Shown here piece after piece: positions 13,344-13,841 of a stretch of DNA of 32,610 bases. Origin of the DNA: Alphaproteobacteria bacterium (GTDB lineage Bacteria; Pseudomonadota; Alphaproteobacteria; UBA9655); NCBI GenBank assembly GCA_019750035.1, contig JAIEOZ010000175.1, positions 1-32,610 of the forward strand. The letters run 5' to 3'. The notes under the pieces are model-generated. The model did not search any database and was not told the DNA's origin. It saw only the letters and a program-made list of their open reading frames with translations. Both the position numbers and the translations under genes were made by a program. Every line of letters starts with the position of its first letter. Position 1 is the first letter of the stretch.

Positions 13344-13841
13344 ATGAAAAGTGATAACGGAGCGGAAGATAAAACCGAATCTTTAAGAACTGCCTCCGAG
13401 GAATTTGAAAAAATTGGAATTTCTTATTTTAGCTATGGTTTAGTAAGCCGAGGAGAGGTTGTTACAAGTATTTTTTCAAATGAAGAATGGGGAAGGCGTT
13501 ATAGGAAAAACCATTATGAAAAAATGGATCCCCTTGTTTTGGGAGTGGTTTATTCAAGTTTTCCTTTAATTATTTGGGATGCTTTGCATGCTTGTGGAAA
13601 AGAAAAAAAGTTAATGATGGAAAGATATGAAATTTGCGATGTTAAATCTGGATTGACACTTGGCATCAAAAATAGAGAAAGCACTGAAGTTTTGGCTGTA
13701 GGATCAACACGTTCTCCTCAAGAATTCTACAATTTATTAAGCGACGAAGGATTCTTAAAAAAAGTTTATACGATTATCAGAAAATTTTATGTTGTTCATA
13801 CCGAAATCTCACCCTGCCTCCCTTCTGGTGAAACAAAGTAA
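13344..13841 (+). CDS. Stand-alone LuxR-type autoinducer-binding domain protein (no HTH)
   Basis: The 165-residue product is essentially one autoinducer-binding domain (PF03472 type). The residues invariant in LuxR/TraR are present at nearly family spacing: Trp49, Tyr53, Asp62-Pro63, Trp78 and Gly107, matching TraR W57, Y61, D70-P71, W85 and G113. The protein ends where the LuxR-type helix-turn-helix would begin, and the following DNA shows no HTH in any frame. It could bind acyl-homoserine lactones or other small lipids without acting on DNA itself. The ATG at 13344 was chosen for its AGAGGA site; upstream GTG (13305) and ATG (13314) codons overlap the transporter gene. No LuxI synthase is in the window. 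It follows the MFS gene by 16 bp. Confidence 0.8.
   Translation: MKSDNGAEDKTESLRTASEEFEKIGISYFSYGLVSRGEVVTSIFSNEEWGRRYRKNHYEKMDPLVLGVVYSSFPLIIWDALHACGKEKKLMMERYEICDVKSGLTLGIKNRESTEVLAVGSTRSPQEFYNLLSDEGFLKKVYTIIRKFYVVHTEISPCLPSGETK

Follow-up and report, generated by a model that had tools for sequence, protein, structure and literature searches.

The window analysed here is a stretch of 32,610 nucleotides from an alphaproteobacterium of the lineage UBA9655 (GenBank assembly GCA_019750035.1, contig JAIEOZ010000175.1), in which a gene for an MHS-family symporter is followed, on the same strand, by a short gene with an ATG start codon that encodes a LuxR-type autoinducer-binding protein devoid of the helix-turn-helix (HTH) DNA-binding domain, hereafter the sensor (Table 1). 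The coordinates agree with the gap of 16 bp given in the first-pass annotation, and the two genes are probably carried on one transcript. By its sequence, the transporter is a clear relative of the TIGR00883 family, which it matches over the full length with 294 bits, below the strict cut-off of the model (443). Directly downstream of the sensor, positions 14109-14561 encode a protein of 150 aa that, judged by eye, probably has a signal peptide and for which no match was found in Pfam or NCBIfam.

Table 1. Features of the transporter-sensor cassette, in coordinates of the window.
Feature	Start	End	Strand	Evidence
MHS-family (TIGR00883-like) metabolite:H+ symporter, 436 aa	12017	13327	+	TIGR00883, E 1.7e-87
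Likely ribosome-binding site of the sensor gene, AGAGGA	13331	13336	+	Read from the sequence; 7 bases to the ATG
HTH-less LuxR-type autoinducer-binding-domain protein, type A sensor, 165 aa	13344	13841	+	PF03472, AlphaFold2 model, congeneric conservation

The sensor is confirmed as a real LuxR-type autoinducer-binding protein without an HTH, as had been noticed from the sequence of the window. It passes the profile PF03472 (Autoind_bind) with 29.8 bits against a Pfam cut-off of 23 (E 4.9e-7), the Pfam scan returned no other family and no HTH family, and at the sequence level a profile of its relatives matches TraR as well as a Yersinia LuxR (E ~0.005). The fold is also the expected one: the AlphaFold2 model (pLDDT 86.5) finds as its top Foldseek matches the ligand-binding domains of LasR, QscR and TraR, with a best E of 1.1e-6 and TM-scores of ~0.55-0.66. 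In a profile alignment, the residues W57, Y61, D70, P71, W85 and G113 of TraR correspond to W49, Y53, D62, P63, W78 and G103 of the sensor, all six being present, and their successive spacings are +4, +9, +1, +15 and +25 in comparison with +4, +9, +1, +14 and +28 in TraR, so that the earlier description of near-identical spacing was a fair one. The sensor has no counterpart of Y53, a residue through which TraR contacts its ligand, since the corresponding loop is two residues shorter in the same alignment; hence, the sensor and TraR may recognize different ligands.

The lack of an HTH is a property of an intact gene. The reading frame ends before any C-terminal GerE domain, and orthologues from eight congeneric genomes (43-50% identity, 153-174 aa) have an identical end point; in most of them a peptide-deformylase gene runs convergently up to the stop codon of the sensor or across it, so that an HTH would have no space. 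Between close pairs of sensor genes dN/dS is ~0.06-0.13, as expected of purifying selection. Since the orthologues share their end point and are under such selection, a frameshifted or truncated LuxR was rejected, and the HTH that a frameshift might have hidden was not found.

Further copies are present throughout the genus, in which 25 HTH-less sensors were found at 24 loci, and their gene neighbourhoods fall into four types. In type A (9 loci, including the window) the MHS gene and the sensor form a tandem, facing a convergent operon of an XRE-family regulator and the deformylase. In type B (3 loci) the MHS gene and the sensor are divergent, the XRE gene is convergent to the sensor, and genes for a SAM methyltransferase and a cupin protein lie close by. 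Type C (9 loci) has the order sensor, methyltransferase, MHS, with no XRE gene beside the sensor at any of the nine loci, and in type D (3 loci, 4 sensors) the MHS gene overlaps the sensor by 4 bp and the XRE gene is convergent. In all 25 sensors the positions of TraR W57, Y61, P71, W85 and G113 are invariant and that of D70 is D or E, with E, among the genus types, in type C only.

The tie to transport that had been suggested from the window turned out to be real and to be kept in relatives: each of the 23 genus loci readable far enough has an MHS gene next to the sensor or close to it, the remaining locus (L049) being left out of the count as its contig ends inside the methyltransferase gene. 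Given that the genomes of the genus encode few MHS genes (~3-16 each, 6 in the window genome), this pairing is not an effect of gene density. In the MHS tree the transporters of types A, B, C and D are each monophyletic (SH-aLRT 100), matching the sensor types, and all the sensor-linked MHS genes of the genus belong to one clade (SH-aLRT 85), outside of which the other MHS paralogues fall and which also contains the MHS gene next to a sensor of G249 and one next to an HTH-bearing LuxR-like gene; in both the MHS and the sensor trees deep nodes are weak and some branches are long.

A second recurrent neighbour, in types A, B and D, is a regulator resembling the lambda CI repressor, composed of an XRE HTH and an S24-like C-terminal domain without conservation of the LexA-type serine; its structure model matches the lambda-type repressor and LexA folds. 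Genomes of the family carry few of these XRE-S24 genes (0-3 each), and 14 of the 17 in the family adjoin a sensor, in type A with the deformylase between. The same pairing is seen again in genomes of four other alphaproteobacterial families: G249 (L081, with an XRE protein that lacks most of its HTH, and L086), G342 (L087), G149 (L090) and G148, where xre-sensor tandems occur twice (L138 and L139). Among 385 genomes of the class, an XRE gene of this kind is found in 7 of 9 genomes with a sensor versus 8 of the 376 others (Fisher p 9.5e-10, uncorrected for phylogeny and shared ancestry). Two observations concern the sensors of these other families. The single genome G249 matches the HTH-less sensor profile seven times (L080-L086), with one match broken by stops and most of them without a transporter neighbour, and the homologue at L087:6819-7244 (minus strand) has an open frame of 158 codons with no ATG, GTG or TTG near the expected start.

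At the window locus itself the XRE gene is not adjacent to the sensor. The window genome (G000) carries the orthologous XRE-deformylase pair on another contig (C259, L137), unlinked from the sensor, and the gene that neighbours this pair in type A clusters has been retained there too, which indicates that an ancestral cluster was split and that the MHS-sensor pair stayed together. Inspected by eye, positions 10306-10653 of the window resemble a fragment of a transposase, and an insertion element could relate to this separation. In G007, which has a type C sensor, no XRE match was found anywhere in the genome; together with the type C loci, where the sensor has no XRE neighbour, this means that the XRE regulator cannot be the sole output.

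A candidate operator of the regulator was recognized as the palindrome ATRYG-N7-CRYAT, which is located upstream of 9/9 type A XRE genes, that of the window genome included, against an expectation of 0.013 per 300 bp. A stricter form has 15 sites in 17 genomes, compared with 1 for the control, and 8 of these 15 precede an XRE gene. In four genomes the stricter form also precedes a gene for a ~325-aa secreted protein (operator starts at L177:3120, L179:3866, L180:3866 and L182:3658), and in a fifth (L181) the palindrome is kept before a remnant of that gene; family and structure searches with the secreted protein gave no match. From the placement of these sites we infer that the XRE protein may regulate its own gene and a small regulon. 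The palindrome is absent upstream of the MHS-sensor transcripts (0/9 loci); an operator of the regulator ahead of these transcripts was therefore rejected, and control of the cassette by the XRE protein is not supported.

No LuxI (PF00765) scored above the cut-off in the 17 genomes, among which that of the window is ~93% complete; the source of the ligand is thus argued to be external, or the ligand not to be an acyl-homoserine lactone (AHL), and the sequences would fit listening to the signal of another organism or a non-AHL ligand. A PF03472 search of the genus retrieved no full-length LuxR partner. The genus does encode LuxR-like proteins of ~270-300 aa, the window genome included (L157), in which a GerE HTH is combined with an N-terminal domain that hhalign relates to the sensor (probability 97.6, E 4.6e-12). 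The initial view of a genus without full-length LuxR was therefore dropped, as these GerE proteins carry the autoinducer domain in a divergent form. In the tree they form a separate and distant clade, and the canonical pocket is retained in the HTH-less proteins, whereas the HTH-bearing paralogues have largely lost D70-P71. At L157, L158, L159, L161, L164 and L165 such HTH-bearing regulators lie beside an MHS gene, some with a SAM methyltransferase gene too, as a parallel cassette in which the HTH is kept. GerE domains occur in other settings as well: L053:1643-5035 encodes a protein of STAND-like layout, with a GerE HTH at the N-terminus, an NB-ARC ATPase domain and TPR repeats, and GerE proteins of ~1,100 aa, judged by length and GerE match only, are found at many congeneric loci, often many per genome.

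Lacking an HTH, the sensor has to work through some other protein, and its candidate partners are the CI-like regulator, the transporter and the HTH-bearing LuxR paralogues. For types A, B and D the CI-like regulator is favoured, on the basis of its repeated pairing with the sensor and of a precedent in Aeromonas phages, where activation of a promoter depends jointly on an XRE protein and a LuxR receptor (PMC10432266). The modules of phages Apop and ARM81ld resemble the present one in that an XRE-family protein and a LuxR-type receptor are encoded together; they differ from it in being phage-borne and in having a LuxR with its own HTH, while the sensor has none and its XRE partner carries an S24-like domain. 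A phage origin of the sensor system was rejected, as no matches were found in phage records and viral contigs, and a defence system was rejected as PADLOC gave no match.

Our preferred reading, which we hold tentatively and at a little under even chance, is that a stand-alone LuxR receptor, inherited in a cassette with an MHS importer, may act through the separate CI-like regulator. The sensor would be co-expressed with the importer, and its ligand, argued to be an N-acyl amide by the retained W57 and D70, would be in the simplest case an AHL of foreign origin or a compound that the transporter handles. Once bound to the ligand, the receptor would contact the CI-like regulator and change its grip on the ATRYG-N7-CRYAT operators, that is, before the regulator's own gene and, in some relatives, before the gene of the secreted protein; in the window genome this interaction would take place in trans, with the regulator encoded on contig C259. 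Sensing and DNA binding would thereby reside on two polypeptides, as a split LuxR. A wider formulation, in which a split LuxR of this kind within a transporter cassette was duplicated into several types in one lineage, its receptors keeping the AHL pocket that the HTH-bearing paralogues lost, is possible and somewhat unlikely. Against the partnership with the XRE protein it may be said that adjacency is not interaction.

The alternative that survives best is that the sensor gates the symporter, opening or closing it from the cytoplasmic face when the ligand is bound and with no DNA involved, by analogy with the PII protein acting on AmtB. The MHS protein is the sole partner common to all four types, type C included, the genes overlap in type D, and the window genome kept its MHS-sensor pair when the XRE-deformylase pair ended elsewhere. 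However, a regulator beside a transporter is also the usual layout for transcriptional control, the HTH-bearing LuxR-like paralogues adjoin MHS genes too, and the sensors of G249 and G148 mostly have no MHS neighbour. Type C and the missing operator before the transporter keep gating alive, and we consider it unlikely.

Antagonism, in which the sensor would dimerise with full-length LuxR-like regulators encoded elsewhere and silence them, is suggested by the two known HTH-less LuxR proteins that act in this way. TrlR of the Agrobacterium Ti plasmid is a near-copy of TraR, with 88% identity, and poisons it (PMC11655674); CerN of Cereibacter sphaeroides opposes the LuxR homologue CerM, its gene lying together with those of CerM, CerR and the synthase CerI (PMC13043044). 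Like the sensor, TrlR is a LuxR-type ligand-binding domain without a DNA-binding domain, and CerN is a divergent HTH-less LuxR homologue with a conserved pocket that works by protein contact. Unlike TrlR, the sensor has no close full-length partner and is found instead beside a transporter and a CI-like regulator, and unlike CerN it belongs to genomes without LuxI and without a canonical LuxR. The genus does hold possible targets in its HTH-bearing proteins, to which the sensor is related in the N-terminal domain, L157 of the window genome among them; but these are distant in the tree, mostly lack D70-P71 and are invisible to PF03472, and none of their genes was seen to adjoin an HTH-less gene of the genus. 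Antagonism is, then, clearly improbable here.

Binding-domain-only LuxR proteins have been reported in several species by Subramoni et al. (2015), who found them common but unexplained, urged their study and proposed sequestration as a role (PMC4338825). The sensor is similar to the LuxR solos described there in being a LuxR receptor without LuxI; those binding-domain-only proteins are often near a full-length LuxR gene, whereas the fixed neighbour of the sensor is the MHS transporter. A match on a Rhizobium plasmid was rejected as an HTH-less relative, being a full-length LuxR beside a synthase gene. A pure sink, binding and buffering a signal with no protein output, accords with the retained pocket residues; it would not need a fixed transporter and a recurrent regulator neighbour kept through duplication into four types, and we regard it as very doubtful. 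The first-pass annotation had proposed a sink or a sensor acting by protein contact: the sensor, the contact and the link to transport are supported, a pure sink is less favoured given the fixed partners, and the recurrent XRE neighbour, the multi-copy family and the full-length HTH paralogues had been missed. Decay from a full-length LuxR gene, which could account for the missing HTH and for the lost XRE linkage in the window genome, is extremely improbable, already contradicted as it is by conservation (one end point across eight relatives, low dN/dS among close ones, a conserved pocket and an intact ribosome-binding site).

The sensor family is found in 10 of 385 genomes of the class, the match in G093 being one that carries an HTH, and in a draw of 398 genomes of the phylum it occurs in no sampled genome besides that of the window. 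HTH-less LuxR domains are already known from TrlR and CerN; we found no earlier description of the present partnership with a transporter and a repressor, and the literature covered, mostly outside subscription journals, contained no account of a combination of autoinducer domain, XRE protein and MFS transporter, nor anything on LuxR in Holosporales or Rickettsiales. Both worked examples of binding-domain-only LuxR proteins are antagonists of a full-length LuxR. The present family, spread over several alphaproteobacterial families, offers testable partners in a fixed transporter, a recurrent CI-like regulator and a predicted operator, and suggests a way in which bacteria that have no AHL synthase might couple a small-molecule signal to uptake.
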